Below, in pieces: positions 731-58,305 of a stretch of 64,000 nucleotides of DNA; position 1 is the stretch's first letter; each line of letters starts with the position of its first letter. The notes beneath the pieces are model-generated. The model was not told where the DNA came from and did no database searches. It saw only the letters and a program-made list of their open reading frames with translations. The stretch lies in contig ONJB01000012.1 in assembly GCA_900318015.1 (NCBI GenBank), positions 1 to 64,000 on the forward strand, written 5' to 3'. The stretch is from an uncultured Bacteroidales bacterium (GTDB lineage Bacteria > Bacteroidota > Bacteroidia > Bacteroidales > UBA932). A program made the position numbers and the translations under genes.

Positions 731-870
731 CGAAGCACCTGGAGCGAAGCGATGGCGCCATCAGGCGCCCGGCCGGGCCGGGTATTTGACGACGAAGGCG
801 GCAAATACGGAAAGGCGAACAGGCCGCGGGGGTGTATGAGGGGGCAGAGCCCCCTGTATTAAGGTACGGG
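731..870. repeat. GC-rich block shared with the tRNA-Leu flank
   Basis: The block carries the motifs GCCATCAGGCGC, TTTGACGACGAAGG and GGCAAATACGGAAAGG, ending in a GGGGG-loop-CCCCC hairpin (839-854). The same order of motifs is found at 8996-9136, immediately next to the 3' end of tRNA-Leu. Confidence 0.7.
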
Positions 871-871
871 C

Positions 872-1037
872 AATGGGACAATTATCGAACCATTTTTGAT
901 GATTTTAGAGATGTGTATCTGCTTGGTATTCAGGCAGATGATAGATTAACTAAAGAAGCTTGGCTCTAAGATTTTTTGAGCACACAGTCTATCGCAGGTT
1001 TTGATAATATGCCGTGGAATTCGTATGTTTGTTAGAT
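872..1037 (+). repeat. Promoter-bearing repeat, copy A
   Basis: About 165 bp starting GTACGGGCAATGGGAC and ending in TATGTTTGTT. Copies B (3268-3440) and C (5627-5795) share the start ACAATTATCGAACC, a central TGTATCT...GGTATTCAGG segment and the terminal promoter. A fourth, partial copy at 1650-1731 lacks the promoter end. Confidence 0.85.
1000..1031 (+). promoter_or_regulatory. Bacteroidota-type promoter of the membrane-protein gene
   Basis: TTTG at 1000-1003 is followed by exactly 20 bp and TATGTTTG at 1024-1031, an exact fit to the Bacteroidota -33 TTTG / -7 TAnnTTTG consensus. The same pair with the same spacing occurs in the two other complete copies of the repeat. Transcription would begin near 1037, leaving a leader of about 50 nt. 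Confidence 0.75.
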
Positions 1038-1085
1038 CTATCCCGATAGGCCGGAGTATTACGAGTTATTTACTGTTTGCCCATT

Positions 1086-1559
1086 ATGAAGACACAACAA
1101 ACACTTCGAGATATCGTCAGCATCATGATCATTGCGCTTGGTATCTTCGTCATTGCCAATGGATTCATTTGGAACCTTTTGACCAACTATGTGGAAACAG
1201 TGTCTTTCAACTGGTCTTTCGATAAGTCTTTCTCATCATTGGGTCTCCTGGATGCCTTGTTCCTCCTATTCCAGTTAATCAGTCTTATAGCCTCTATCGC
1301 CATCAGCTTTTGCCGTTTGTTTCGGGTTCAATTCAAAGAGTACAAGACTGAAAGGGTTATCGCCACCGTTTACCTTTGTCTTGCATTTTTGAGTATTTAT
1401 CCTCTTTTATTGTTTACAGCCTTTACGGCCTGGACTTTTAATGCCGATGATTCTAAAAGGTATATCCTGGCGGTCTCGACAAGTGTCTATTTTCTGGATT
1501 TCTGTATTCTCTGGTTGTCTGTCCAGTCTGCCAAGTTGCTTGTAAGAACCCGTCGATAG
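1086..1559 (+). CDS. Four-helix integral membrane protein of unknown function
   Basis: The 157-residue protein starts at MKTQQTL and has four hydrophobic helices, at about residues 10-32, 50-75, 88-110 and 122-147. It has no enzymatic motif or signal peptide that I recognise, and the charged C-terminus (LLVRTRR) suggests a cytoplasmic tail. A TTG three codons upstream is a possible alternative start, but the ATG at 1086 is preferred. It stands alone behind promoter repeat copy A. Only the 3' half of the usual terminator hairpin is left after it (about 1570-1580). I do not recognise the family. Confidence 0.65.
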   Translation: MKTQQTLRDIVSIMIIALGIFVIANGFIWNLLTNYVETVSFNWSFDKSFSSLGLLDALFLLFQLISLIASIAISFCRLFRVQFKEYKTERVIATVYLCLAFLSIYPLLLFTAFTAWTFNADDSKRYILAVSTSVYFLDFCILWLSVQSAKLLVRTRR

Positions 1560-1566
1560 GTTTGAT

Positions 1567-1731
1567 TGATTGCCGGGGATTTGCATCGGAATTCTCACAG
1601 AAATCGACTTTTCTCAGAAATCTAAATCTCTGAAAATCAATTAGTTAAATGGTATCGTACGGGGTCGTTAACTTATATCTAACTATTTTGGATAACTTGT
1701 TGGAGATTTATCTAGTTGGTATCCAGTCGGT
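1567..1731. repeat. Degenerate terminator remnant plus partial promoter repeat
   Basis: Positions 1567-1671 match 5536-5641: the second half of the terminator, then TCTCACAGAAAT and CTCTGAAAATCAATTAGTTAAAT. The following 1650-1731 resembles the first half of the promoter repeat but has no TATGTTTG box. The unit appears truncated by the end of the opposite-strand gene at 1734. Confidence 0.6.
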
Positions 1732-1733
1732 TA

Positions 1734-2756
1734 CTATTCTATCTCGTGCATAGCGTCCCAATTGTCCGGCTTTTCGCCGTATTTTTGCACCAGGGGGAGA
1801 AAGCGTGCGTTTGCTTCCTTTTCGTCATCATAATAGGCCTCATACAAGCTGGTTGGAAAAACATAGAAGCCCTTGATTTCTTTATCCTTGAAACAATCTT
1901 TGATGAAATCGTAGGACCATTCGTTATTGTAGGTCATCGCAATCTTGAAGAGCCTTTCGACTCGATAATGGTTGGGAGCCCCACGCATGAGTTCATAATC
2001 CCGTATCTCTTCGAGCACTGGAATGAAAATGTCGTCCGGCCATTTCAAGACAGCGTCAAGTCCTTCTATAGTCCTGCTCCTTTTGTTTGACCAGGGATCA
2101 TAGAAATCATACTCCCGGAGTGCTTCAAGTATAAGCGGGATATCTTCTGGCTTCCGATAGGTCGCCAGAATATCCAGATCCTGCGATTCGCCATTGAGAT
2201 AGAACTCCCGAACCCGATCGTAGAGGCCTTCGGTTCCAGATAGCCGCAAAGCAGAACGATACTTGTCCAGATGCTCCATGCCGGCCCCGAAAACGGCAAG
2301 ACTGTCAATGGTGTGAATCTGCTCGGTGGTATAGAGTCCATCGTACTGCCAAATAGTACTAAGCATGAAATCTCCGACAGTCTTTTGCCATCCCTGATCA
2401 ACCCACCAGTACCAAAATAAATCCTTATCAGTCAACCTGTCCAAAAGGATGCTGTAACAGCGTTCGCTCTTCTTTTCGGCCAAAGAATAGAACGCAAATA
2501 CACGCTCGGCAGGATAAGTTGCATAACGGGCCAGGGAATCCAAATCCGAATCAGTAGACTCCCTTAATATCCGTTGTTGTCTTTGCCAACCTTGAGGAGC
2601 TTTCCCCCAGCCGCCGTAGGAAGTTCGATTAAAGATGTTGTTAGTGTCGATTTGGGGTATTGGTGGTGGCGGTGGGATATTGTCATTTACTTGCCCATGA
2701 CAAATGACGTTGACCAAGGGAAAGAGCAAAACCGCTGTTATGATACGACGAATCAT
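1734..2756 (-). CDS. Exported protein of unknown function, possibly HEAT-like
   Basis: The 340-residue protein begins with a signal peptide (hydrophobic residues about 6-18, cleavage near CHG-Q), then a proline-rich linker (PPPPPIPQ). The rest is helix-rich and acidic, with recurring patterns of aromatic and leucine residues (for example DLDILATYRKPEDIPLILEAL) that resemble HEAT-type helical repeats. I see no catalytic motif. It is the only minus-strand gene in the first 9 kb and stands alone. I do not recognise the family; the periplasmic location rests on the signal peptide alone. Confidence 0.6.
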   Translation of the reverse strand: MIRRIITAVLLFPLVNVICHGQVNDNIPPPPPIPQIDTNNIFNRTSYGGWGKAPQGWQRQQRILRESTDSDLDSLARYATYPAERVFAFYSLAEKKSERCYSILLDRLTDKDLFWYWWVDQGWQKTVGDFMLSTIWQYDGLYTTEQIHTIDSLAVFGAGMEHLDKYRSALRLSGTEGLYDRVREFYLNGESQDLDILATYRKPEDIPLILEALREYDFYDPWSNKRSRTIEGLDAVLKWPDDIFIPVLEEIRDYELMRGAPNHYRVERLFKIAMTYNNEWSYDFIKDCFKDKEIKGFYVFPTSLYEAYYDDEKEANARFLPLVQKYGEKPDNWDAMHEIE

Positions 2757-2808
2757 GCTAAATGAGAATGAAACACTCCAATTGCTTCAAATACCGTTCC
2801 GCCTTTGT

Positions 2809-3025
2809 CCTGAAATAGGTTTACCAGAGGTTTGTGGATGGTCGAATTGTAACTAACTGATAGCCAAACGATTCAAAAATGTATATCCGCAGACCTGCCA
2901 GAAAAAAGATGGGTCCGAGGATTGAATAATTGTAATATACAGTCAATCAATGAATTACAAAACAGTTACCCGCAGACCTCAGCGAGCCGCACGAAAAACA
3001 CGGCCCTGGCACTGCTCAAACGCTG
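2809..3025 (+). repeat. Long intergenic repeat, diverged partial copy 3
   Basis: Matches the right half of the repeats at 152-575 and 8552-8977 through shared strings such as GATTCAAAAA, GCAGACC and GTCAATCAATGAATTA in the same order. It is clearly more diverged, and the left half with the terminator is missing. Confidence 0.65.
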
Positions 3026-3027
3026 AA

Positions 3028-3090
3028 TCGAAGCACCTTCGGAGCGAAGCGACTTCGCCTGCAGGCGAACGGCGGCTTCTGCCGCCGAGT
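3028..3090. repeat. GC-rich palindromic block, copy 2
   Basis: Nearly identical to 596-657: CTTCGGAGCGAAG, CGCCTGCAGGCG and a CGGCGG/CCGCCG hairpin in the same order. Confidence 0.7.
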
Positions 3091-3230
3091 CCCCTCCCCG
3101 AGGGAGGGATTAAGACCTGCGGTCTTTCCTTTCTACTCGCCTCGGAAATCTGAACAAGTTCGATTTCTCTCGGCTCGGGCGAAAGGTTAGGGGAGGGGTA
3201 ACGGTGAACTGACGGAGTCCCCCCGCCCGT

Positions 3231-3273
3231 GTACGAAACCGCCCGGCCAGCGAGGCCGGGCAGGGTTTCGTAC
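3231..3273. repeat. Long inverted repeat
   Basis: GTACGAAACC (3231-3240) and GCCCGGCC (3241-3248) are followed by a 5-nt loop, then GGCCGGGC (3254-3261), a 2-nt bulge and GGTTTCGTAC (3264-3273). This is 18 bp of stem in 43 bp. It directly abuts the GGGCAATGGGAC start of promoter repeat copy B. Confidence 0.75.
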
Positions 3274-3440
3274 GGGCAATGGGACAATTATCGAACCAAT
3301 TTTGAGGTTTTTCTGGAATTGTATCTACTTGGAATTCAGGTAGATATGGTTTTATCTATGGGAACTGGACACAAAGAGTATTTGAATACACAATAGCCGA
3401 TAGGTTTGATATTGTACCGTAGAATTCGTATGTTTGTTTA
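3268..3440 (+). repeat. Promoter-bearing repeat, copy B
   Basis: Aligns with 872-1037 and 5627-5795: the same ACAATTATCGAACC start, TGTATCT...GGAATTCAGG centre and a strongly conserved final ~40 bp ending TATGTTTGTTT. It lies directly upstream of the MBL-fold/NifX/DUF1349 operon. Confidence 0.85.
3405..3436 (+). promoter_or_regulatory. Bacteroidota-type promoter of the MBL/NifX operon
   Basis: TTTG (3405-3408), a 20-bp spacer and TATGTTTG (3429-3436). The predicted start near 3442 gives a leader of about 55 nt to the ATG at 3496. Confidence 0.75.
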
Positions 3441-3495
3441 GACAAATCGGAATTGCCCGAATTGCTTTTCCAAATGGAGAAAAACAATTGACTGC

Positions 3496-4320
3496 ATGAT
3501 GAGTGGAACCATAAGTGTCCTGTCAGACAACCGTACTTCGGATCCGGACCGCTTCGGATGCGAGCATGGCCTGTCCGTGTTGGTGCGTACTCCGTCGGCT
3601 AATATCCTGATGGACACAGGAGCCTCCGGGCTTTTCGCGGTCAACGCCGCCCGGATGGGCATCGACCTTTCCGATGTGGACTATGTCTTCCTCTCCCACG
3701 GCCACTCCGACCATGTCGGCGGCCTGAAGACTTTCCTGGACCTGAACAGCAAGGCGATAATCATCGTTTCGCCCAAAGCAGTATCCGGCCGTTTTTATTC
3801 AGAAAGGGGCCGGCAGCATTCTATCTCCTGTGATTGGCCGCTGGCGCAGATGAGGGACCGGATGATATCTGTGACTGACACGATGACCCTTGCGGACGGG
3901 TTACACATTATTACCGATATTCCGCAAAGACACCCGCTTCCTTTGGGTAATCGGCTTCTTTCCGTCCGTTGGGAAGGTGGTTTGATCCCGGATGATTTCT
4001 CCCACGAGATGGCCATCTATGTGGATGGTCTGCTCTATACAGGCTGCGCTCACAACGGCTTGGAGAACATCTTGGAGGCCTGTCCATGGCCGGTGGGCAC
4101 CGTCATCGGCGGCTTCCACCTGTTGGACTCAAATGGCATGCATTCCTTTGAAGCCGAAGAGGAACTCACCGCGCTGGCAGAACGCCTGGTCGCCTGTTAT
4201 CCCCAGGTTTCTTTCCTGACCGGCCACTGCACAGGAAAAGAAGCCTTCCGTATCCTGCAGTCTGTCATGGGTTCAAGGCTGCAGCAGTTTGCCTGCGGCA
4301 TGCAAATTGACATGAAGTAA
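3496..4320 (+). CDS. Metallo-beta-lactamase-fold hydrolase (COG1237-like)
   Basis: The 274-residue cytoplasmic protein carries the metal-binding motif HGHSDH at residues 68-73 and further conserved pieces of the MBL fold (LMDTG at 38-42, TGCAH in the middle, LTGHCTG near the C-terminus). The layout, with a late GH(C/D)TG histidine, resembles the COG1237 group related to archaeal ribofuranosylaminobenzene-phosphate synthases, whose bacterial members have mostly unknown substrates. Two adjacent ATG codons begin the frame at 3496. It is first in an operon, 23 bp before a NifX-type gene, an association that suggests a role in metal or redox chemistry rather than antibiotic hydrolysis. The fold is sure; the substrate is unknown. 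Confidence 0.85.
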   Translation: MMSGTISVLSDNRTSDPDRFGCEHGLSVLVRTPSANILMDTGASGLFAVNAARMGIDLSDVDYVFLSHGHSDHVGGLKTFLDLNSKAIIIVSPKAVSGRFYSERGRQHSISCDWPLAQMRDRMISVTDTMTLADGLHIITDIPQRHPLPLGNRLLSVRWEGGLIPDDFSHEMAIYVDGLLYTGCAHNGLENILEACPWPVGTVIGGFHLLDSNGMHSFEAEEELTALAERLVACYPQVSFLTGHCTGKEAFRILQSVMGSRLQQFACGMQIDMK

Positions 4321-4343
4321 AATCAATCTAATAGATATTTCTT

Positions 4344-4718
4344 ATGCAGCTCTTACAGATAATCGCCGTCCCCACCTGCGAGGGAAAACTATGGCCCCAC
4401 TTCGGCAAGGCCCCTCAGGTCAGCATCTTTACCATCCAAGATGGCCAGGTCATTGACTCCGCAGTCCTGCAGGCCCCGGAGCATGAGCACGGTGCGATGC
4501 CCCGGTTCCTGGCAGCCCAGGGCTGCACGGATGTCCTGTGCGGCGGCCTCGGTGCCGGAGCCGTCATCCTGCTTGACGATCTGGGCATCAAGGTCCACGC
4601 CGGCGCCCCTGCCATCGAGGTCGAAGAAGTCCTGAAGATGTTCCTGGACGGATCCATCGTCTATGGCGACGGCAGCTGCCACCACGACGGCTGCGGCGGG
4701 CATCATCACGAGCACTGA
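4344..4718 (+). CDS. NifX/NifB-type iron-molybdenum cofactor-binding domain protein
   Basis: This is a single-domain protein of 124 residues of the dinitrogenase FeMo-cofactor biosynthesis family (PF02579). The family hallmarks are the opening AVPTCEGKLWPHFGKAP, the CGGLGAGA turn and the amphipathic C-terminal part of the domain. The tail GSCHHDGCGGHHHEH (about 110-124) packs two cysteines and many histidines and looks like an added metal-binding arm. Family members outside nitrogen fixers are small carriers for iron-sulfur or metal clusters. No nif genes are nearby, so nitrogen fixation is not implied. It sits between the MBL hydrolase and a DUF1349 lipoprotein in one operon. Confidence 0.85.
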   Translation: MQLLQIIAVPTCEGKLWPHFGKAPQVSIFTIQDGQVIDSAVLQAPEHEHGAMPRFLAAQGCTDVLCGGLGAGAVILLDDLGIKVHAGAPAIEVEEVLKMFLDGSIVYGDGSCHHDGCGGHHHEH

Positions 4719-4752
4719 TTGAGTTCGGGAAATCGGAATTTGTATCAAGTAT

Positions 4753-5490
4753 ATGACCAACATCACGAAACTCCTATGCCTTGGCTTCTGCCTTTGTGCA
4801 GTAGCTTGCGGAAACCCGTCGCAGAAAGCAACTGACGCTGAATTCGCTGACAGCGTGGCCGAATCTCTCGCCAATGGCGGGCAGATCAACCTGAACCAAC
4901 TCCAATGGACCAGGGAACCTGCCGCCTTCGAGATCAAGGACGGCGTCATCTCCATCACTACCGCCCCGCACACGGATCTCTGGCAGCGGACATACTATCA
5001 TTTCCGGAATGACAATGCTCCTGTATTGCAGATGAAGACCAAAGAGAGGTTTTTCAGCTTTGTGGTAAAGACTGATTTCACCCAAAGCCACCAGCGCTTC
5101 GACCAGTGTGGCATCGTGATGTACCTAGACAGCGACAACTGGCTCAAGGGCTCCGTGGAGTTCGAGAACGAGAAGTTCCAGCACCTGGGCAGCGTGGCAA
5201 CCAACAACGGCTACTCCGACTGGGCCACCACGGCTATATCTGCCGATGTTAAGACCATGTGGTACCGTCTCTCCCGCCGGGAGGATGACTTCTGTATTGA
5301 GTGTTCCAACGATGGATTCAACTTCAGCCAGATGCGCGTCTGCCACATGTATGCCGCAACAGACGAGATCAGCTTTGGCATTTATGCCTGCTCTCCGGAA
5401 GAATCCTCCTTCACGGCAGTGTTCACGGATATAAAGATTACGGAGTGTGCTTGGAAGGCCCACGACGGTCAGCAGCCGGATGAAGAATAG
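4753..5490 (+). CDS. DUF1349-type lipoprotein (concanavalin A-like fold)
   Basis: The 245-residue protein has a lipoprotein signal (LCAVACGNPS, lipid-bearing Cys near 19). The mature part resembles DUF1349, a lectin-like beta-sandwich domain: the WQRTYYHF segment, the 'DQCGIVMYLDSDNWLKGSVEFEN' region and the closing 'FGIYACSPEESSFTAVFTDIKI' region are typical of the family. DUF1349 proteins are widespread and lack a firm biochemical role; carbohydrate binding is a reasonable guess from the fold only. It is last in the three-gene operon (34-bp gap) and is followed by the hairpin terminator at 5518. Confidence 0.75.
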   Translation: MTNITKLLCLGFCLCAVACGNPSQKATDAEFADSVAESLANGGQINLNQLQWTREPAAFEIKDGVISITTAPHTDLWQRTYYHFRNDNAPVLQMKTKERFFSFVVKTDFTQSHQRFDQCGIVMYLDSDNWLKGSVEFENEKFQHLGSVATNNGYSDWATTAISADVKTMWYRLSRREDDFCIECSNDGFNFSQMRVCHMYAATDEISFGIYACSPEESSFTAVFTDIKITECAWKAHDGQQPDEE

Positions 5491-5517
5491 CGGTTAAACC
5501 ATAAATCGATATCAGAT

Positions 5518-5551
5518 AACCCCGACAGTCATGGATGATTGCCGGGGTTTT
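5518..5551 (+). terminator. Hairpin terminator after the MBL/NifX operon
   Basis: An AACCCCG arm pairs with a CGGGGTT arm across a GTCATGGATGATT loop region and is followed by TTT. It is the same hairpin as at 164-198 and 8565-8599. Confidence 0.75.
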
Positions 5552-5626
5552 GCATCGGAGTTCTCACAGAAATTGACTTTTCACAGAATTGTAAATCTCT
5601 GAAAATCAATTAGTTAAATAGCGTTG

Positions 5627-5795
5627 TACGTGATCGTTAACAATTATCGAACCAATTTTGACGATTTTTGTGAGGTGTATCTATTTGGTATTCAGGTTGA
5701 TAATAGGTTAACTAAAGAAACCTGCCTTTAAGATTATTTGAAACACAGTCTCTCGCCGGGTTTGCTATTGTGCCGTAGAATCCGTATGTTTGTTT
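5627..5795 (+). repeat. Promoter-bearing repeat, copy C
   Basis: Aligns with copies A (872-1037) and B (3268-3440). It is closer to copy A in the middle (GGTTAACTAAAGAA) and to copy B in the start (CGAACCAATTTTGA). It lies directly upstream of the TonB receptor/crcB operon. Confidence 0.85.
5761..5792 (+). promoter_or_regulatory. Bacteroidota-type promoter of the TonB receptor/crcB operon
   Basis: TTTG (5761-5764), a 20-bp spacer and TATGTTTG (5785-5792), identical in form to the promoters at 1000 and 3405. The leader to the ATG at 5827 is about 30 nt. Confidence 0.75.
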
Positions 5796-5826
5796 CTGAT
5801 TGAATGAACTCGATGGATAACATCAT

Positions 5827-8166
5827 ATGCGGTTGCTTTGGAACCCTATGCGTAGGATACTCATCTCTCTGATACTTCTTGCCCAGGCGCTGGTCGTCTT
5901 TTCCCAGAACGGGGTGAAAGGACGCGTGGTGGAAGTCGATGGGGGACCGGTGATTTATGCGGCCGTGGTGCTGGAGTCGGCCGGGAAGACGGTGGCGGGT
6001 GCCATGACGGGCGAGGAGGGATCTTTCCTGATTCGGGGTGCGTTCAATGGACAATACCTGTTGAAGATCAGTTCCATCGGTTTTAAAGACTTGACGCGGG
6101 AAATCGCATGCACCGGCAAGGGAATGGTGGATCTGGGTGATATCATCCTGGCCCAGGATGCAACGGTCTTGAACGAGGCGTTGGTTGTTGCCGGTGAGAC
6201 GCCCAAGAGTCTGAGCGTGGAAAAGACGCGCATCAATACCGCATCCAGCGCTGCGGCGACAACAGGGTCCGTGCTGGAGGTAATCCGCGAGGCTTCGGCA
6301 ATCAGTGTCGATGGCAGCGGCGGCATTTCCATCCGTGGCAATAGCAATGTTCTTATCTTGGTGGACGGGATTCCCACCACCCTCGGGGGCTTGGAGAGCA
6401 TCCCGGCAGCCAATGTACAAAGCATCGAAATCGTGACCAGCCCGGATGTCAAGTATGATTCCGAGGGTACCGGCGGCATTGTCAACATCATTTCAAAGAA
6501 GCAATCTGCCAATATGTTCAGCGCGATGGCTGCGTTTAATTATGGATTTAACGGGTTCATGAACGGGAATGTGGCGCTGAATTATAACAAAGGCCGATGG
6601 GGCGTGCGGTTCAACTACAACGGCAAATACGAGAAGGATAGGATTGAGAGCGAGTTGCATCGGCAGATTGTGACCACAGGAAGCCGGGTGGACCAACTGA
6701 TCCATGCGACCAAGCGGACTTCCGGCCAGAATGCCGGCATCAACCTCCAGTTCAAGGCTACGCCCAAGGATATCCTGACAGCCGATTTCAAGGTGGCGCT
6801 GCCCCGGATGAACAATTTCCAGGACTTCAACGGCACGCGCCAGACCGATATCACTTTCAACCGCGAGAACTTTGAAGGAGGATTGGGGTATAAGCATTTG
6901 TTCGACCCCGGCAAGAAGGAGTTGAACGTGAACGCTTCCGTCTCCAGCATCACCGGTCATCGACCATCCTACTATTATGAAGGCGGAAAAATGGTGCAGA
7001 AGTCCCAGTCCGGCGGCCATCCCCTGATTGCCGCCCTGCAAGCCGATTATCTGACCATGTGGGGCAAGGGCCGGTTCGAGTCGGGCGCGAAGATGACATA
7101 TCGGCAGAACAACATCGACCATAAGATGTATGAGTGGGACGATGCCACGCAGGACTGGGTGTTGTCCATGCCGCTCAGCAACGACCTGACTCATCGGGAG
7201 TACATCCCGGCGGCGTATGCGATGTATTCCGGCAAATTCTCCGAGGCACTGTCCTACAAGGCCGGTGTCCGCTTCGAATACAGTTATGTCACGCTGCACA
7301 GCGAGAAAGAAAAACTGGACGACCACAGCGACTGCTGGTTCCTGTCGCCCAGCCTGTCGCTGGATTGGCGTGTCGCCCCACGCTGGTCATTGAGCGCTGC
7401 ACTCGCCAGGCGCATCTCCCGGCCGACGTATCCGCAGTTGAACCCGTACATCAACCTGATCGACAGGCAGACTTACGAGATGGGCAACATGAAGTTGCAG
7501 CCGGAGAAGGCCAACAAATTGGACGCGGGGTATTCCTATACCGGCAAGTCTTTGACGGTGAGCGGCAACGCCTATGTGACTTACACCACGAACTTCATCA
7601 ATCAGGTGGCTTATCTGGACAACGACATCCTGGTGACGACCTACATCAATGCGGATTCCGATGTGAAGACCGGCATCGACCAGAACATCCGGTATTCGCC
7701 CGCCAGGTGGCTGACGCTGGATCTGGCCGGCAACACCTTCTATTCGGCTTCCCGTGGTTCCTTCAAGGGCGCCGACATCCGAAATCAAGGCTGGACCAAC
7801 AACAGCAACGTCGGCCTTGCCATCCGGCCTTTCAGCGGTTCGGAAATCCAAGTGCAGTACTTTGTGACAACACCACAGTATTTCCCTCAGTTCACTACCC
7901 GGACCATCCATTACGGCAACATCGGCATCAAACAGTCCTTCCTGAAGAATGCGCTTACGGTTTCCGCTTTACTGACGGATGTGTTCAACACCCGCCGCTG
8001 GGATGTGCATTCCGACAACCCGGTTTTCATCCTGGTGAACAACAGCAAGAACCTTAGTCGTATGTTCTGGCTTGGCATTAACTGGAACTTCCACTCCTTC
8101 AAAGCCGCGAAGGGTACACAAAAACAACAGGAGGAAGACAGGAGCATCCTCAGATTGGGAGATTAG
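5827..8166 (+). CDS. TonB-dependent outer-membrane receptor, non-SusC type
   Basis: The 779-residue protein has a signal peptide (cleavage near VVFSQ, about residue 27), an N-terminal carboxypeptidase-regulatory-like domain (about 28-115), a plug domain (about 120-225, with GISIRGNSNVLILVDG and GTGGIVNIISKK) and a long C-terminal beta-barrel of the outer-membrane beta-barrel family, with many aromatic girdle strands. It lacks the SusC-length barrel, has no SusD partner, and so is probably not a PUL glycan importer; siderophores, metals or peptides are more usual cargo. A second ATG at 5848 (MRRILI) could be the true start because the signal peptide works better from it. Only 3 bp separate its stop from crcB. 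Confidence 0.85.
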   Translation: MRLLWNPMRRILISLILLAQALVVFSQNGVKGRVVEVDGGPVIYAAVVLESAGKTVAGAMTGEEGSFLIRGAFNGQYLLKISSIGFKDLTREIACTGKGMVDLGDIILAQDATVLNEALVVAGETPKSLSVEKTRINTASSAAATTGSVLEVIREASAISVDGSGGISIRGNSNVLILVDGIPTTLGGLESIPAANVQSIEIVTSPDVKYDSEGTGGIVNIISKKQSANMFSAMAAFNYGFNGFMNGNVALNYNKGRWGVRFNYNGKYEKDRIESELHRQIVTTGSRVDQLIHATKRTSGQNAGINLQFKATPKDILTADFKVALPRMNNFQDFNGTRQTDITFNRENFEGGLGYKHLFDPGKKELNVNASVSSITGHRPSYYYEGGKMVQKSQSGGHPLIAALQADYLTMWGKGRFESGAKMTYRQNNIDHKMYEWDDATQDWVLSMPLSNDLTHREYIPAAYAMYSGKFSEALSYKAGVRFEYSYVTLHSEKEKLDDHSDCWFLSPSLSLDWRVAPRWSLSAALARRISRPTYPQLNPYINLIDRQTYEMGNMKLQPEKANKLDAGYSYTGKSLTVSGNAYVTYTTNFINQVAYLDNDILVTTYINADSDVKTGIDQNIRYSPARWLTLDLAGNTFYSASRGSFKGADIRNQGWTNNSNVGLAIRPFSGSEIQVQYFVTTPQYFPQFTTRTIHYGNIGIKQSFLKNALTVSALLTDVFNTRRWDVHSDNPVFILVNNSKNLSRMFWLGINWNFHSFKAAKGTQKQQEEDRSILRLGD

Positions 8167-8169
8167 ACG

Positions 8170-8541
8170 ATGGAACTTATCAAAACCATATTGGTGGTTG
8201 GCGCCGGCAGTTTTTTGGGCGGCGCAGGCCGTTACCTTGTATCGTGGGCGTTGAGAGGCATCAAGGGATTCCCTTGGGCAACGCTGGCTGTGAACCTGGC
8301 CGGATGCTTCTTGATCGGCCTTCTCTGGGGCGTCTTCAGTAAGAACGGTACCGAGGGAGGCAACTGGGCCTTATTCCTGACTGTGGGTTTCTGCGGTGGC
8401 TTTACGACCTTCTCGACTTTCTCGAAGGAGGCGCTGATGATGTTGCAGGGCGGGAACATTTGGGGTTTTGTCGGGTATGTAGCCTTCAGCGTGTTTGCCG
8501 GTATCGCCCTTGTCGCGTTGGGGTACTTCCTAGTTCGCTAG
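8170..8541 (+). CDS. crcB: Fluoride efflux channel CrcB/Fluc
   Basis: The 123-residue, four-helix membrane protein carries the family signature GFCGGFTTFSTF at 73-84 and the conserved Asn of AVNLAGCF near residue 42. Length and layout are standard for the dual-topology fluoride channels that export F- passively and protect cells from weakly acidic fluoride. It starts 3 bp after the TonB receptor stop, so the two are probably co-transcribed, an unusual pairing. A hairpin terminator follows at 8565. I see no fluoride riboswitch ahead of the operon. Confidence 0.95.
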   Translation: MELIKTILVVGAGSFLGGAGRYLVSWALRGIKGFPWATLAVNLAGCFLIGLLWGVFSKNGTEGGNWALFLTVGFCGGFTTFSTFSKEALMMLQGGNIWGFVGYVAFSVFAGIALVALGYFLVR

Positions 8542-8551
8542 TATTCGGCTT

Positions 8552-8977
8552 ATCGGCATAACACAAACCCCGACAGTCTTGGAAGATTGCCGGGGTTTTG
8601 CTTGCGTAGAGGGTGAGGTTGGGAACCAACTATGTTCCATGGTGCTGATTATTAGCCGATTATGAAACCATCGGTTCCAAACCTGCCGTTTAAATGAAAG
8701 GTTCGGAACGATGCATTTAATAATAAAATGATTGACAGATATTTGCGATTGGTTCGGTTCCCAACCTCCGGTATCGTCCTGAAATTGGTTGACCTGGGTC
8801 TGCGGAAAGTAGTATTGTAACAGGTTGATAGCCGTACGATTCAAAAACCTGTGTCCACAGACCTGCCGAAAAAAGATGGGGTCTGCGGATTACAAATCTG
8901 CAATTGTCAGTCAATCAATGAATTATAAAACCGTTATCTGCAGACCCCAGTGAAAAGCACGAATAACACGGCTTTGG
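8552..8977 (+). repeat. Long intergenic repeat, copy 2
   Basis: Matches 152-575 at a constant offset of about 8400 bp with few substitutions and one or two single-base indels. The two copies bracket the whole gene-sparse region in direct orientation. Confidence 0.85.
8565..8599 (+). terminator. Hairpin terminator after crcB
   Basis: AAACCCCG and CGGGGTTT arms pair around AGTCTTGGAAGATTG and are followed by T residues. It is located 24 bp after the crcB stop. Confidence 0.75.
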
Positions 8978-8995
8978 CACCGTACCGACCCTGAA

Positions 8996-9136
8996 TCGAA
9001 GCACCTTTCGGAGCGAAGCGACTGCGCCATCAGGCGCACGGCCGGCCCGGGTATTTGACGACGAAGGAGGCAAATACGGAAAGGGTTTAAGGCCGCGGGG
9101 GTGCTCGAGGGGGCTGCTCCCCTCGTTAGATAGAAG
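8996..9136. repeat. GC-rich block adjoining tRNA-Leu
   Basis: Shares the ordered motifs of 731-870 (GCCATCAGGCGCACGGCC, TTTGACGACGAAGG, GGCAAATACGGAAAGG, CGCGGGGGTG). A hairpin at 9106-9125 (CGAGGGG / CCCCTCG) lies 12 nt beyond the tRNA 3' end and could serve as its transcription stop. Confidence 0.65.
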
Positions 9137-9218
9137 TACGGGTGGGGGGACTCGAACCCCCACGGCTTGCGCCACCAGATCCTAAGTCTGGGTTGTCTAC
9201 CAATTCCAACACACCCGC
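9137..9218 (-). tRNA. tRNA-Leu (anticodon UAG)
   Basis: The reverse strand folds into a class II tRNA of 82 nt. Acceptor arms are GCGGGTG (5') and CACCCGT plus discriminator A. The anticodon stem-loop is CCAGA-CTTAGGA-TCTGG with UAG at 9182-9184. There is a variable arm (TGGCGCAAGCC region), and the T arm carries GGGGGTTCGAGTCCCCC. The first pair is G-U. CCA is not encoded. A TACCTTTG box lies just upstream at 9232-9239. Confidence 0.95.
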
Positions 9219-9240: not shown

Positions 9241-10089
9241 TCAATTTTTCGCGAACTCCACGCAGGCCCATTCTTCGCGGAGGGTCTGGCCGACGAAGGT
9301 GAGGCCGAGGGAGGCGGCGCGGTCCTGCAAGGCGGGGATGTCGGCCTCGTAGAAGCCGGACATCAGCAGCCGGCCGCCGTGCCGCAAGGAGCGCACGTAG
9401 GTAGGCATGTCCTCCAGCAGGATGTTCCGGTGGATATTCGCCAAAATGACATCATAAGAGCCCATCTGGAGGAGGGAGGCGTCGCCGCAGGCGGTTTCCA
9501 CGCGGCGGGAGACGCGGTTCCAGCGGGCGTTGCCCCAGGCGGAGCGGGCGGCGACCGCGTCAATGTCGACCGCAAATACCTTCCGTGCGCCCATCTTGGC
9601 GGCGAGGATGCCCAGGATGGCGGTGCCGCAGCCCATGTCCAGGACCACGTGCCCCTTGATCAGGTCCTCGATTCCCAGCATCCGCTGCATCATCATGTAG
9701 GTCGTGTTGTGCGAGCCGGTGCCGAAGGCCATTTCCGGGTCGATCCAGATGTTGAACCGCGTGCGGGGGACGTTCTCGTTGAAGGAGGCCTTGATGGTGA
9801 CCTTCCCGTCCACGACGATGGGCTCGAAACGACTCTCCCATTCCTTGTTCCAGTTCTGGCCCTGGATGGGGACGGCCTCGAAGCCGACCACGTCGGGATA
9901 GCCGCTCAGGACGACCTTCAGGTCGCCCGGGCGGTATTCCGACAGGGGAATATAAGCTTTCAACAGTGGTTCCTCCGTCACGAAGGAGTCGTACGGCAGT
10001 TCGGCGAGCTCCGCCATCAGCATCTCGGCCGTCTCTTCGGAGAACGGCTCCAGGCGGACGGACACCTCGATATACTCGAAACTATTCAT
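9241..10089 (-). CDS. prmA: Ribosomal protein L11 methyltransferase
   Basis: The 282-residue class I SAM-dependent methyltransferase trimethylates ribosomal protein L11. An N-terminal substrate-recognition domain (about 1-95) is followed by the family signature PEMAFGTGSH at 118-127 and SAM motif I LDMGCGTAILGI at 149-160. The NIHRN segment, the PrmA version of the NPPF-type motif, appears in the second half. Its start codon overlaps the end of the AsmA-like gene by 8 bp, so the two are translationally coupled, and it ends right before tRNA-Leu. The family call is safe. Confidence 0.95.
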   Translation of the reverse strand: MNSFEYIEVSVRLEPFSEETAEMLMAELAELPYDSFVTEEPLLKAYIPLSEYRPGDLKVVLSGYPDVVGFEAVPIQGQNWNKEWESRFEPIVVDGKVTIKASFNENVPRTRFNIWIDPEMAFGTGSHNTTYMMMQRMLGIEDLIKGHVVLDMGCGTAILGILAAKMGARKVFAVDIDAVAARSAWGNARWNRVSRRVETACGDASLLQMGSYDVILANIHRNILLEDMPTYVRSLRHGGRLLMSGFYEADIPALQDRAASLGLTFVGQTLREEWACVEFAKN

Positions 10090-13000
10090 CTTCTTCTTTC
10101 TTTGCGACCGGTTTTTCTGGCGTGTCTGCCTCGGCCACCATCTTCAGCACTTCCTCCTTCAACGCTTCCTTGTCCATTTCCGAGGAGGCTTGTTCGAAAC
10201 GGCGGGTCATCAGGGCGACGGAATCCTGGACCGCGGCAGGGGCCGCCAGGGTGTCGGCATCGGGGGTATAGCCTGTCTGCGTCATCCGGTCCTGGATGTA
10301 GTGCTGCTCCTTGTTCTCGGCAATGACCTGGTCCACGCCCAGTTCGAAGACGTTATGGATGGAAGCCAGCAGGCTGTTCTGCACGGTATCCAGCTGCCGG
10401 CTGAAGTCGGGCACGGGGATGCGCCGGTACTTCGCCCGGCCCACCCCGTACTTGATATGGTCGAAGTCGTCGCCCCAGATGTTGATGCCGAACTTCACCA
10501 GCAGCGGCGACTTGATGGCCGACAGGTGATAATTGAACGACTCGTCCAGGTGCTGCAGCCCGCTCAAGGCCAGGGTGTACCGGTCGATGCCCATGACGAA
10601 AGGGAAGACCTCCATCACGTTGTCCCGGACCATGCCCGTCACGCCCATCTCGTTCACGTAGGCGCCGTTCTTGTTCCGGAACACCAGCATCCTGGCAATC
10701 CGCTTGAACTCGGGGGTGTCGCCGTCGATGGACAGGTCCTTGCCGGAAATCCGGAGGATCCCGTCGATGGACGGGAGCACGAGCTTCATGGCCGTGTCCA
10801 TTTCCGCCGTGGCGGCGAGCTCGCAGTTCAGGTCGCCCGCGAAGGAGCGCAGCATCGGCACCAGCGTATCGATCGCCGGGAACAGGGTGATGACCTTCTC
10901 CGCGGTGACGTCCACCAGGTTGAGGTCGAAACCGGTCTTGATGTCCCGCTTGCTCCGGGTGGCGTAGAAGCCCTCGAAATGGATTTCGCCCATGTTCGTG
11001 GCGGCGAGCGCATTGGTGATCTGGAGGGTGCGCTGCTTCATTTCCAGGTCGGCGGCGGCCCAGGAAACTTCCAGGCTGTCATACCGGATGTCGCTGGCTT
11101 CCACGCTGACCCGCGCATTCAGGTTGCCGGGGACGACGAGAAGGCGGGATGACGCGCTGTCCGGGAGTTCGACCCGCTCGATGGCCCGTTCGAGGGCTTC
11201 GTCGCTGGCGCGTTCCATCGAGGGCTCGGGGTCATATGACGCATAATAGGCGTATGCCCGCATGAGTTCGTTGGCGTCCAGGTGGTCGGAGGAGACCGTG
11301 GCGTCCAGCTCCATCGTGCCGCGCATCAGCAGGGAGCGGTGCAGATTCGAGAGCGTACCCTGGGCGGAAAGGTTGGATTCCCCGGCTTCGACGGTGATGT
11401 TTTTCAAGTCCACCTGATCGTTGGTGACCGCCCCGCGCAGGTCCAGCACCTGTGTCTGGAGCGGGAAGGCGGGCACGAGCAAGCGCGCCCGTTCCATCGA
11501 CACGTTGCCGGCGAAGTCCCAGTTGCGGTAATACTGCCGGACTGCGTCGGAAAGGTTAACGTGGATGTCCCGGCTGCGGAAATCGGACTGCATCCAGGCC
11601 GGGAAGGTGCGCCGGGGATGGCTCTGGCGGTATTTCGCCATCAGGGAGTCCCGCGGGACACCCGGCCAGACCCGTTGCAGGGAGTCCAGGAAGCGGTTCA
11701 GCCGGTTGGTGGTGCTTTCCGCCAGGAGGTGCTTGTTCGCGGTGATGTCGAACTTGAAGTTCCGCAGCAGGACGCCGTTGGCGCCGGTGCGGACCCGCAC
11801 GCCCGTGCTTTGGCTCGTGAGGTTCAGCTTCGGGGAGCGGAAGTCCTTGGTGGAAGGCGTGACGCGGAAGGTCTCCATGTTGTCCCGGAGGCCGATGGCG
11901 GTGCCTTCCTCATCCCGCATCGACAGGTTTGCGGCCTTGAGGACGCCCATCAGCGGGGTCAGCTCCTTGCCGCCGCGGAGGATGGCCGCGGAGTTCTGCG
12001 CCTGGATGTCGATGTCCTTGCCACGGACATAGGTTCCGCCCTTGTAGGTGGCGTCCAGGGTGTCCAGGACGGCGTTCAAGGCCAGGACGCGGGCGCCCCG
12101 GCGCATGTTGTCGTCGATGCGGTTGCCCTTCGTCTCCAGCGTGAGGTCCGCTTTCCGGATCCAGGCCTTGAGTTTGTCTTTCGAGTCGTCCACGGACAGG
12201 TCGCGGATGACCGCATTTCCCTTGATGTCGGCGTTTCCGATCTTGGCGAGGTTCAGCTGCGAAAGGTGCGCCTGCCCGTTCAAGGAGGCGGTGATGGAAC
12301 CGGTCCCGGTGATGCCCCGCTCGGCCGTGAAGGCCTTCGTGAGGGAGTCCACCCGGGCGCGGATCTTCCCGTTGATGGCAAAGAAAGGATCCTCGCCGGT
12401 CACGTCGGCCGCCGTGCCCTTCATGTCGATGCGGGCGCCCACGACGTCCAGGAGGACGCGGTTCAGGTCCAGGTCCAGTTTCAGTTCCTCGTCGGTGTTG
12501 GCATCGACATCCAGCGATACCTGGCCCCGGCGGCCGAATCCCTCGTAATCGACGAAGGCATCCGGAATCTGCAGGCGGGCGTTGATGCGCGGGAGCCGGC
12601 CCTTCGCCAGGACGCCGTCACAATGGGCGTCCAGGTCCAGCACCGCGTCGGTCTTCACTTTTCCCAGGGCGGGGAAGTTGACCTTGTATTCCTTCAGGAG
12701 GTCGCCCAGGGGGCATTTTTCGATGGTGGCCTCGGCCTGGATCTCCGTGCTGTCAGGGTGGAAGACTGCTTTGCCGCCACCCTTCAGGTCGATGGTGGCG
12801 ACTTTCAGCGTGAGGCGGTCCACCTGGGTCTCCAGGGCGCCGTCCGGCCGCTCCGGGAAGGACGCGTCGGCCTCCAGGTGCACCGGAATCCGCATCCGGC
12901 CGGAGGAGCGCAGGGAGAGGAAGGCCTTGGCATCCGCCGCGAGCGAAACGCGGCGGTCCTTGCCTTCCGCTTCCAGGCGGTCGAGACCCAGCGCGACCGT

Positions 13001-43933: not shown

Positions 43934-44971
43934 ATGAAACGAATCCTTTCCATCCTTGCCCTTTCCCTGGCCATGACTTCCCTGCATGCCCAGGAGTTGG
44001 CGAACTTCAACTTCGGAGGCCGCCAGCGTCCCGTGATTTCCCCGGAAATCCAGAAAGACAGCGTCACCTTCCGCTTGAAGGCCGACTATGCCACCATCGT
44101 CAAGCTCAGCGGTTCCTGGATGCCCAACCCCTATGGCGGCACCATCGACATGCAGCGTGGCGAAAACAACGTGTGGGAAGTGAAGATTCCGCTCCCGGAG
44201 CCGGAAATCTACACCTACAACTTTGTCGTGGACGGCGTGGCGGTGAACGACCCGCAGAACGTGTACGTCCAGCGTGACGGCACCCGCTTCCTCCCGATGC
44301 TCATCGTCCCTGGCGAGCGTACCGAGAACTACAACGAGGCTACCCAGCACGGCACCGTGAGCCATCCCTGGTATCACAGCAACGTCCTCGGCATGGACCG
44401 CCGTCTGACGGTGTACACCCCGTACGGCTACGAGAACAACCCTAAAAAGAAGTATCCGGTCCTCTACCTCCTGCACGGTGCCGGTGGTGACGAGGAAGCC
44501 TGGATCTCCATGGGCCGTACAGCCCAGATCCTGGACAACCTCATCGAGAAGGGCCTGGCCGAGCCGATGATCGTCGTCATGCCGAACGGCAACGCCAACC
44601 AGGCGGCCGCCCGCACCCTCGGCATCCCCGAGAAGCAGATGCAGATGCGCTGGGACCGCGAGGCCCTCGCCCAGATGCCCGAGGCCGAGCGCAACAAGCT
44701 CATGAACGGTTATGTGATCAGCCTCTGCGAGGAGATCGTCCCGTTCATCGAGAAGAACTTCCGCGCCATTGCGAAGCCGGCTTCCCGCGCGATTGCCGGT
44801 CTGTCCATGGGCGGCGGCCACACCATCACCGCCTCCAACATGTATCCGGAGATGTTCGACTACATCTGCCCCCTGTCCGCCGCCGGTTCCGCCACGCCTG
44901 AGCAGGTCGCTACCCTCAAGAAGGCCGGCGTGAAGCTCTACACGTCTGGGCCAACTGGCGCCTGTACCTGA
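43934..44971 (+). pseudogene. CE1-family esterase with internal deletion and frameshifted tail
   Basis: The reading frame gives 345 residues: a signal peptide (SLHAQ), an N-terminal Ig-like/CBM48-like domain (about 30-125) and a CE1 hydrolase domain with Ser291 in [10 protein letters not shown]. After KAGVKLY (336) it ends in the foreign tail TSGPTGACT. The correct family C-terminus is still present in another frame: codons from 44941 read [13 protein letters not shown] and so on, to a TAG at 45000, matching the end of the paralogue at 57142-58293. About 112 bp coding for ~37 residues are missing at 44940/44941, so the acid region is lost and the catalytic His is out of frame. It is likely inactive, unless the deletion is an assembly error. 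Confidence 0.85.

Positions 44972-45111: not shown

Positions 45112-48536
<3,425 letters not shown>

Positions 48537-57141: not shown

Positions 57142-58305
<1,164 letters not shown>

Follow-up and report, generated by a model that had tools for sequence, protein, structure and literature searches.

Why should one conserved block of DNA, closing with a promoter-like motif, stand before three unrelated sets of genes in an uncultured Bacteroidales bacterium? The block lies near the start of a window of 64,000 nt (GenBank assembly GCA_900318015.1, contig ONJB01000012.1, positions 1 to 64,000), which starts with the first base of a 100,942-base contig in a genome of 3.2 Mb and 106 contigs. The initial annotation had offered two answers, a shared operator that makes three operons a small regulon, or a mobile promoter repeat. 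Our analysis of the window and of related genomes argues, with a good deal of confidence, for another, namely that the repeats are attachment-like recombination sites which border small exchangeable cassettes behind a leucine tRNA gene (tRNA-Leu), and not a shared operator. The likeness of the sites to tRNA-Leu, the co-oriented arrays in which they occur and the switching of their flanks together make the site copies look like the borders of cassettes exchanged by site-specific recombination.

A 70-nt site that resembles the end of tRNA-Leu

The three repeats described by the initial annotation are present and lie far beyond chance. BLAST comparison within the window aligned 864-1033 with 5640-5794 (83% identity over 156 nt, expectation value E 3e-42) and with 3270-3438 (76% over 174 nt, E 4e-28), and 3284-3439 with 5640-5795 (76% over 157 nt, E 2e-26). 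Each unit opens with GTAC, at 864, 3270 and 5626, and consists of a site of approximately 70 nt, a linker that is also conserved among the window copies, and a promoter whose TTTG stands 65-66 nt past the site end. The promoter motif TTTG-N20-TATGTTTG is found in each of the three copies, as had been claimed, and has exactly three matches in the 64 kb (1000-1031, 3405-3436 and 5761-5792), where 0.00 were expected from 100 dinucleotide shuffles; the 30-60 bp given for the distance to the first ATG is also right, the ATGs of the open reading frames (ORFs) being at 1086, 3496 and 5827. What had been taken for a promoter-less, decayed partial copy at 1650-1731 is instead a full 70-nt site at 1657-1726 (model match 1-70), which has no promoter and is followed 7 nt past its end by the stop of a convergent gene (1734-2756, minus strand). 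Elsewhere in the same genome there are two further sites, at C33:142-211 and C33:1172-1241, and a promoter tail without a complete site beside it at C33:3930-3991.

Counts given below refer, unless stated otherwise, to a main set of 97 distinct sites (E≤1e-3, duplicates removed) on 58 contigs of 46 related genomes. The first 28 nt or so of the 70-nt site look like the 3' end of tRNA-Leu read as its reverse complement, except that 5 nt are inserted in the T-loop: most of the tRNAs read GTGCGGG-TGAA-GGGAC-TCGAACC in this direction, and the commonest site type reads GTGCGGG-CAAT-GGGAC-AATTA-TCGAACC. In a single example alignment, which contains one 5-nt gap, 22 of the 26 bases paired between the site consensus and the reverse complement of tRNA-Leu are identical. 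When the consensus was aligned with 23 tRNA-Leu genes, the scores ranged from 12 to 28 with a median of 23, whereas the maximum for 2000 shuffled consensus sequences against the window's tRNA-Leu was 19; two non-Leu tRNAs on array loci scored 12 and 14. In 15 of the 23 genomes that have both, every site shares its GTAC or GTGC ending with the host tRNA (6/6 in G000; manual count). A 42-nt arm and the modified T-loop (AATTA) are common to the sites and are not found in the tRNA.

This outer arm (window 892-933, 1685-1726, 3298-3339 and 5654-5695, plus strand) varies like a protein-coding frame, NYRT[IN]F[DE]D[FL]xxVYL[FL]G[LIV]Q. Among 68 distinct copies there was one stop in the coding-like frame versus 34 and 98 in the other two, and third positions were the most variable, with a permutation p of 0.0016 computed on copies that are not independent. 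No start codon was found for this frame, and none of seven peptides gave a Pfam family above cut-off, so that a protein origin was not adopted; a protein-profile search of 151 same-genus genomes found the arm frame at E≤1e-4 only in ORFs of at most 285 aa, with no recognizable parent gene. Two other identities were also set aside: tRNA-Leu itself was the sole RNA-family match in the window, and an attC-like inverted-repeat reading of site C (GTTAAC...GGTTAAC) was not seen in other copies.

Arrays behind tRNA-Leu and their cargo

A sequence-only model of the 70-nt block, built from 20 of the 21 copies then known, matched 16 of 55 same-genus genomes at E≤0.01 and, weakly (4e-5 to 0.008), 4 of 36 genomes of other families, where three matches look like chance and one (L085, G049) has a 16-base run in common with the block. 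At the protein level, a profile of the reading frame in the block matched 56 of 151 same-genus genomes under a permissive cut-off of E≤0.5, and 31 at E≤1e-4. An exact pattern returned 45 stretches from a one-genome-per-species collection (84,980 species by its description), all titled Bacteroidales or Bacteroidia, and the sources named in their titles were ruminants (rumen, reticulum, omasum, abomasum; red deer). Window positions 864-1040 had no match in 72,556 plasmid records at E≤1e-5, and two exact patterns, which miss diverged copies, returned no stretch from viral_contigs.

All 24 contigs with more than one site hold their sites on one strand, and the 39 gaps between sites, measured within fetched stretches of at most 20 kb, range from 502 to 3615 nt with a median of 1282 nt. 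Where a locus includes tRNA-Leu, its sites are all situated past the tRNA 3' end and on the other strand (32/32); for the remaining 65 sites no tRNA-Leu is on the fetched locus. In many loci tRNA-Leu is adjoined by prmA (by Pfam) and a long ORF without Pfam match. On 36 of 58 contigs there is a site no more than 1.5 kb away from a contig end, where 12.8 such contigs would be expected at random, an excess as expected of repeated arrays that break assembly. A short repeat of fixed length with sharp ends in many species of a genus might also be a non-autonomous transposon, similar to a miniature inverted-repeat transposable element, that inserts at many places with or without the promoter; but the own genome's six copies are confined to two contigs and the copies that share a locus with tRNA-Leu all lie beyond it in one orientation, and we find this explanation scarcely credible.

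The DNA between sites, with its gene or genes, a site at one end and often a terminator-like hairpin at the other, recurs elsewhere in the arrays of other species, and its border often coincides exactly with the GYAC end of a site. When one moves right from the site, the first edge of a long ORF to appear is a convergent stop at 58 of the 97 sites and a gene start at 20, and there is none within 400 nt at 19. An antisense stop lies at most 20 nt from the site in 39/97, whereas others, three window cassettes among them, have a gene start there instead. The distance from stop to site recurs for each gene family across genomes: it is usually 8 nt for a 369-aa Fic protein (5 nt in L194), 8 nt in several genomes for a pair of helix-turn-helix nucleotidyltransferase and HepT, 10 nt for an MNT/HEPN pair, 2 nt for a protein that resembles Bro-N but falls slightly short of the Pfam cut-off, and 1 nt for a protein with DUF6169. 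AbiEii, ParDE and a MazE-like antitoxin were also found as cargo, and the cassettes of the window differ from all of these in their genes (Table 1). Orientation can differ within a family, as with the DUF1349 gene (window 4753-5490; L058 13735-14469; 81% protein identity), which faces opposite ways with respect to the sites in G000 and in G004.

The 50 nt before the site fold strongly, with a mean z of -2.69 and 63% of the 97 sites below -2 (30 letter shuffles each), whereas the first 50 nt of the site fold no better than shuffles (mean z +0.74). As the hairpin directly follows the tRNA end in tRNA orientation, each cassette may bring the tRNA a terminator.

Sedentary chromosomal integrons keep gene-plus-site cassettes, toxin-antitoxin genes among them, in one co-oriented array, and the present arrays are like them in all of this, including the integron-type trait of a gene with a recombination-like site at its 3' end, found here with family-specific spacing in the 39 sites mentioned above. 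The array works like an integron array, yet the tests for IntI and for the attC fold fail. A true IntI/attC integron whose integrase had been missed would explain the one- and two-gene cassettes with a 3' site, the co-oriented sites and the toxin-antitoxin cargo; against it, no IntI passed the cut-off in 25 same-genus genomes, folds of 21 copies had by eye no common attC-like stem, in keeping with the poor folding of the site, and both the site and the anchor of the array are of tRNA type. A true integron is on these grounds highly improbable.

The promoter tail occurs at E≤1e-5 beside only nine of the 97 sites, three in the window, two in L140 and one each in L156, L207, L200 and L183, and these sites precede mostly unrelated genes; in L198 the tail is broken and in L062 it is weak. 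Both boxes, exact in the window, are kept in the tails of L156, L207, L200 and L183. Bacteroidota promoters have the consensus -33 TTTG and -7 TAnnTTTG at about 20 nt, and the boxes of the tail are constant while the spacer diverges (CCGTGGAATTC versus CATAAAATGA), which supports promoter function. Judged by its sequence, the tail is a real but optional promoter of Bacteroidota type.

The position of the three window copies before gene starts with perfect promoter spacing, and the boxes kept in relatives, would also suit a shared operator or promoter repeat, in which one regulator binds the conserved ~100 bp and the three operons form a regulon. We regard this as very unlikely, because the tail is so rare beside the sites, because it stands without a complete site at C33:3930, because the first ORF edge is far more often a convergent stop than a gene start, and because one end of the 70-nt part resembles tRNA-Leu and this part has neighbours in common with tRNA-Leu. 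The ~100 bp read as an operator are an attachment-like site related to tRNA-Leu. Nor is a small regulon supported, as the tail has only four strong matches in its own genome, and these are confined to C21 and C33, the contigs with sites; and copies lying mostly away from gene starts, an outcome that the initial annotation had itself named as speaking against its reading, are what the relatives display. Of the 'mobile promoter repeat' one half stands, since the repeat behaves as mobile and the promoter travels with some copies before unrelated genes, whereas the promoter is not an obligatory part of it. We read the promoter beside the site as a cassette-borne expression module and not as a regulon signal.

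Probable exchange at defined borders and the question of the recombinase

The DNA following each of 24 tRNA-Leu genes and each of the 97 sites was compared over a length of up to 250 nt. Matching flanks were found in 182 pairs, 86 of which start at nt 3 or earlier in both members; for tRNA flanks against site flanks the corresponding count was 31 of 63, and for tRNA-versus-site matches of at least 100 nt it was 13 of 23. The tRNA-Leu flank of G117, for example, matches the site flanks of six genomes from nt 1-3 with 86-93% identity over ~250 nt, that of G102 matches a site flank of L202 (RGIG4871) with 99.2% over 250, that of G036 matches two sites of G161 with 99.4% over 169/169 and 100% over 92/92, and that of G004 matches a site flank of G157 with 91.5% of 106. 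Content and position therefore vary between relatives with exact borders, a trait of tandem islands.

Individual cassettes have equally defined ends. Those with the 369-aa Fic protein are homologous in three genomes between the GCAC of the site ahead of them and the GCAC of their own site, and show no relationship past it. Segments consisting of the DUF6169 gene plus its site are near-identical in three genomes, where the DNA ahead of the gene differs and the last site bases also differ (GTCCCTTCACCCGCAC, GTCCCGTTGCCCGCAC and GTCCCATTGCCCGCAC), the first of these being the common tRNA-Leu end. Similarly, among 26 pairs of sites from different genomes whose right halves are at least 95% identical, the left 13 nt differ in 16. 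We infer from this pattern that exchange takes place within the T-arm-like block. The species-level genomes G004 and G061 share, at 99.4% identity, a 1.9-kb stretch that contains a 589-aa ORF (L058 15897-17802 and L100 680-2585), and in one of the two this stretch joins the site directly after TTATCGAA. By eye, PIN-like and MNT-like genes at L231 ~11150-11205 and L059 ~9570-9800 are each cut short and joined straight to a site.

In the mechanism that we propose, a trans-acting enzyme, most probably a tyrosine recombinase, would join cassettes at tRNA-Leu or at an existing site, exchanging strands within the block that resembles the T-arm. Transcription of the tRNA would then stop at the hairpin brought in by the new cassette, whose far end would be marked by the site. 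Cargo genes either end at the site, as do many toxin-antitoxin, Fic and Bro-N-like genes, or start at the site-adjacent promoter and read back towards the tRNA, as in three cassettes of the window. A more ambitious form of the proposal, which we put forward tentatively and with the balance of judgement somewhat against it, is a superintegron-like gene-capture platform derived from a tRNA, in which short, specialized tRNA-Leu-like sites and a recombinase supplied solely in trans would let one genus of uncultured Bacteroidales collect and reorder one-gene cassettes, each with its own tRNA terminator and some with a promoter, kept by toxin-antitoxin and Fic cargo.

Several observations weigh against reading the repeats as borders of exchanged cassettes. 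The window's own, diverged tRNA-Leu scores only 15 against the site consensus (shuffled mean 10.7). The GAAGGGAC end, typical of most tRNA-Leu genes, is on 5 of 97 sites only, less often than would be the case were all insertions to go through the tRNA T-loop, and in 22/97 sites GTTAAC replaces GGGAC, leaving the tRNA likeness mainly at GTRCGGG. The GTAC/GTGC base conflicts with the host tRNA in G013, in G180 and in part of G161, where two GTAC sites accompany a GTGC tRNA, the other exceptions having a degenerate start; mixed bins could be the source of some of these mismatches. Ten of the 23 tRNA-versus-site matches of at least 100 nt start further in, including the window's own (nt 11/14), and here other repeats are shared too, as they are in the window. 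Junctions fall inside genes in L100 and, by eye, in L059 and L231, and these may be secondary sites. Finally, IntI (TIGR02249) was over the cut-off in none of 25 same-genus genomes and in one of 41 overall, from another family; PF00589 matches in eight genomes were on other contigs or far off (window contig, 98.7 kb; G036:C1, ~255 kb from site); and 876 kb of partly redundant array DNA held two integrase-like ORFs, in L108 and RGIG4875 (L231). Neither excision nor circles were observed.

The ORF in L108 is separated from a degenerate site by ~12 kb. In RGIG4875 a 6.5-kb segment (L231 4044-10567) between tRNA-Leu and the cassette array is closed by a copy of the tRNA-Leu end and encodes a 457-aa integrase-like protein with Phage_int_SAM_5 above and PF00589 just under the Pfam cut-off, which indicates that this tRNA-Leu end serves as a target. 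As a candidate for the general enzyme this integrase was rejected, having matches at E≤1e-10 in 14 of 22 other genomes, the best full-length one at 47% identity, and in six loci fetched no tRNA-Leu end or site lay near it. A hijack of XerC/D may also be considered; a guessed dif pattern occurred in 1 of 12 genomes, which left no dif for comparison. As no recombinase is linked to the arrays, we favour an enzyme that would act in trans.

Relation to known systems and layout of the window

Ordinary accretion of tandem islands at a tRNA gene is the rival that we take most seriously, although we consider it rather unlikely. The sites would then be fossil attR copies of elements that lost their integrase, and the arrays would be dead and reshuffled by homologous recombination. 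The Dehalococcoides ssrA islands provide a precedent, since they are described as having tandem repeats of the end of the transfer-messenger RNA (tmRNA) with many integrase-less islands (PMC3146451), and cassette insertion at tRNA genes is reported for additive islands (PMC7771536, PMC10872708); the recombinase-bearing element at the same tRNA-Leu in RGIG4875 and the ten long matches that start away from the border also suit this view. On the other hand, the other 13 of the 23 start at the GYAC border, the same small cassettes recur with the site attached and with similar stop spacing, the shared 42-nt arm and modified T-loop are unlike simple copies of a tRNA end, and stretches of 99% identity in different genomes point to recent movement.

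Cassettes exchanged at specialized sites, the reading that we prefer, can be set beside these systems. The ssrA islands are described in PMC3146451 as lying in tandem beyond one tmRNA gene with direct repeats of the RNA 3' end, 28 of which were aligned; insertion was placed in the T-loop, a conserved motif stands beside the repeat, and 15 islands have no integration module. The present arrays are similar in being tandem beyond an RNA gene with direct 3'-end repeats, but the ssrA islands are described there as phage-genome-sized, many with serine recombinases, whereas here the sites are 0.5-3.6 kb apart with no array recombinase bar one element, and have a 5-nt T-loop insertion, a 42-nt arm and family-specific distances to gene stops. 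Additive flexible genomic islands (PMC10872708, PMC7771536, PMC5217437) likewise add cassettes at a tRNA with repeats of part of it, these being described as the last 20 nt or part of the tRNA. In contrast, the present sites are tRNA-like with a changed T-loop, are of more than one core type and are found in dozens of genomes of a single genus; many cassettes open with a terminator-like hairpin, and some have the shared promoter. Tycheposons are also tRNA-anchored cargo islands, described as 4-200 kb with a tyrosine recombinase (PMC10872708), whereas the cassettes here are of ~1 kb and without one.

Repeats of the tRNA 3' end at the borders, and a co-oriented array that begins at the tRNA 3' end, are both tandem-island traits found here; an integrase encoded by the elements is a third, and it is missing from the arrays apart from the two integrase-like ORFs named above. 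Its absence lowers the case for membership without excluding it, since integrase-less members of such arrays are described (PMC3146451). The arrays thus look like a variant of tRNA/tmRNA tandem islands with specialized sites, small cassettes and no array integrase. Wider literature searches led to the tRNA/tmRNA-island precedents, and a search for Bacteroidales and Bacteroidetes found no prior description, most subscription papers lying outside the search, so that absence in print is not shown by it. If our reading is correct, a Bacteroidales genus of ruminant metagenomes carries a chromosomal array that is like a sedentary integron, of tRNA-end origin and with no visible integrase, and this array would offer a ready catalogue of small mobile units, many with toxin-antitoxin or Fic genes. 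It would also mean that a conserved block of promoter plus upstream DNA before unrelated operons need not be a regulon, although it is naturally read as one, and can instead be an attachment site that carries a promoter as passenger, and it raises the question of which recombinase moves the cassettes.

The features of the window are listed in Table 1, where the cassette boundaries are those suggested by cassettes in other genomes.

Table 1. Sites, promoters, hairpins, tRNA gene and putative cassettes in the window
Feature	Position	Strand	Remarks
Site A, 70 nt	864..933	+	864-891 like reverse complement of tRNA-Leu 3' end; 892-933 conserved outer arm
Site D, 70 nt	1657..1726	+	Formerly regarded as a decayed copy; stop of convergent 340-aa gene 7 nt beyond
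Site B, 70 nt	3270..3339	+	
Site C, 70 nt	5626..5695	+	GTTAAC type core
Promoter of cassette 4	1000..1031	+	TTTG-N20-TATGTTTG
Promoter of cassette 2	3405..3436	+	
Promoter of cassette 1	5761..5792	+	
Terminator-like hairpin, start of cassette 3	3231..3273	-	Base includes GTAC of site B; -21.8 kcal/mol (DNA parameters requested, loading unconfirmed)
Hairpin just past tRNA-Leu 3' end	9106..9125	-	47 nt from tRNA end identical to those beside the C33:1241 site, where the hairpin was folded
tRNA-Leu	9136..9218	-	Anticodon TAG read from sequence (positions 35-37); presumed primary attachment site; 3' end faces array
Putative cassette 1 (tRNA-Leu to site C)	5626..9135	-	TonB-dependent receptor 5827-8166, CrcB 8170-8541, promoter, site C
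Putative cassette 2	3270..5625	-	Metallo-β-lactamase-fold protein 3496-4320, NifX-like 4344-4718, DUF1349 4753-5490, promoter, site B; in L140 these genes also lie between two sites
Putative cassette 3	1657..3269	-	340-aa protein, no Pfam family (1734-2756, -), site D
Putative cassette 4	864..1656	-	157-aa protein 1086-1559, no Pfam family, promoter, site A

Two further repeats were noted in the window. A direct repeat in two pieces (91% and 85%) joins 149-853, the DNA beyond site A, with 8550-9122, the DNA beside tRNA-Leu, which we take for two cassettes whose start regions are similar. An inverted repeat of ~820 nt with 74% identity links 44053-44875 and 57388-58174, with a related copy at 47613-48209.

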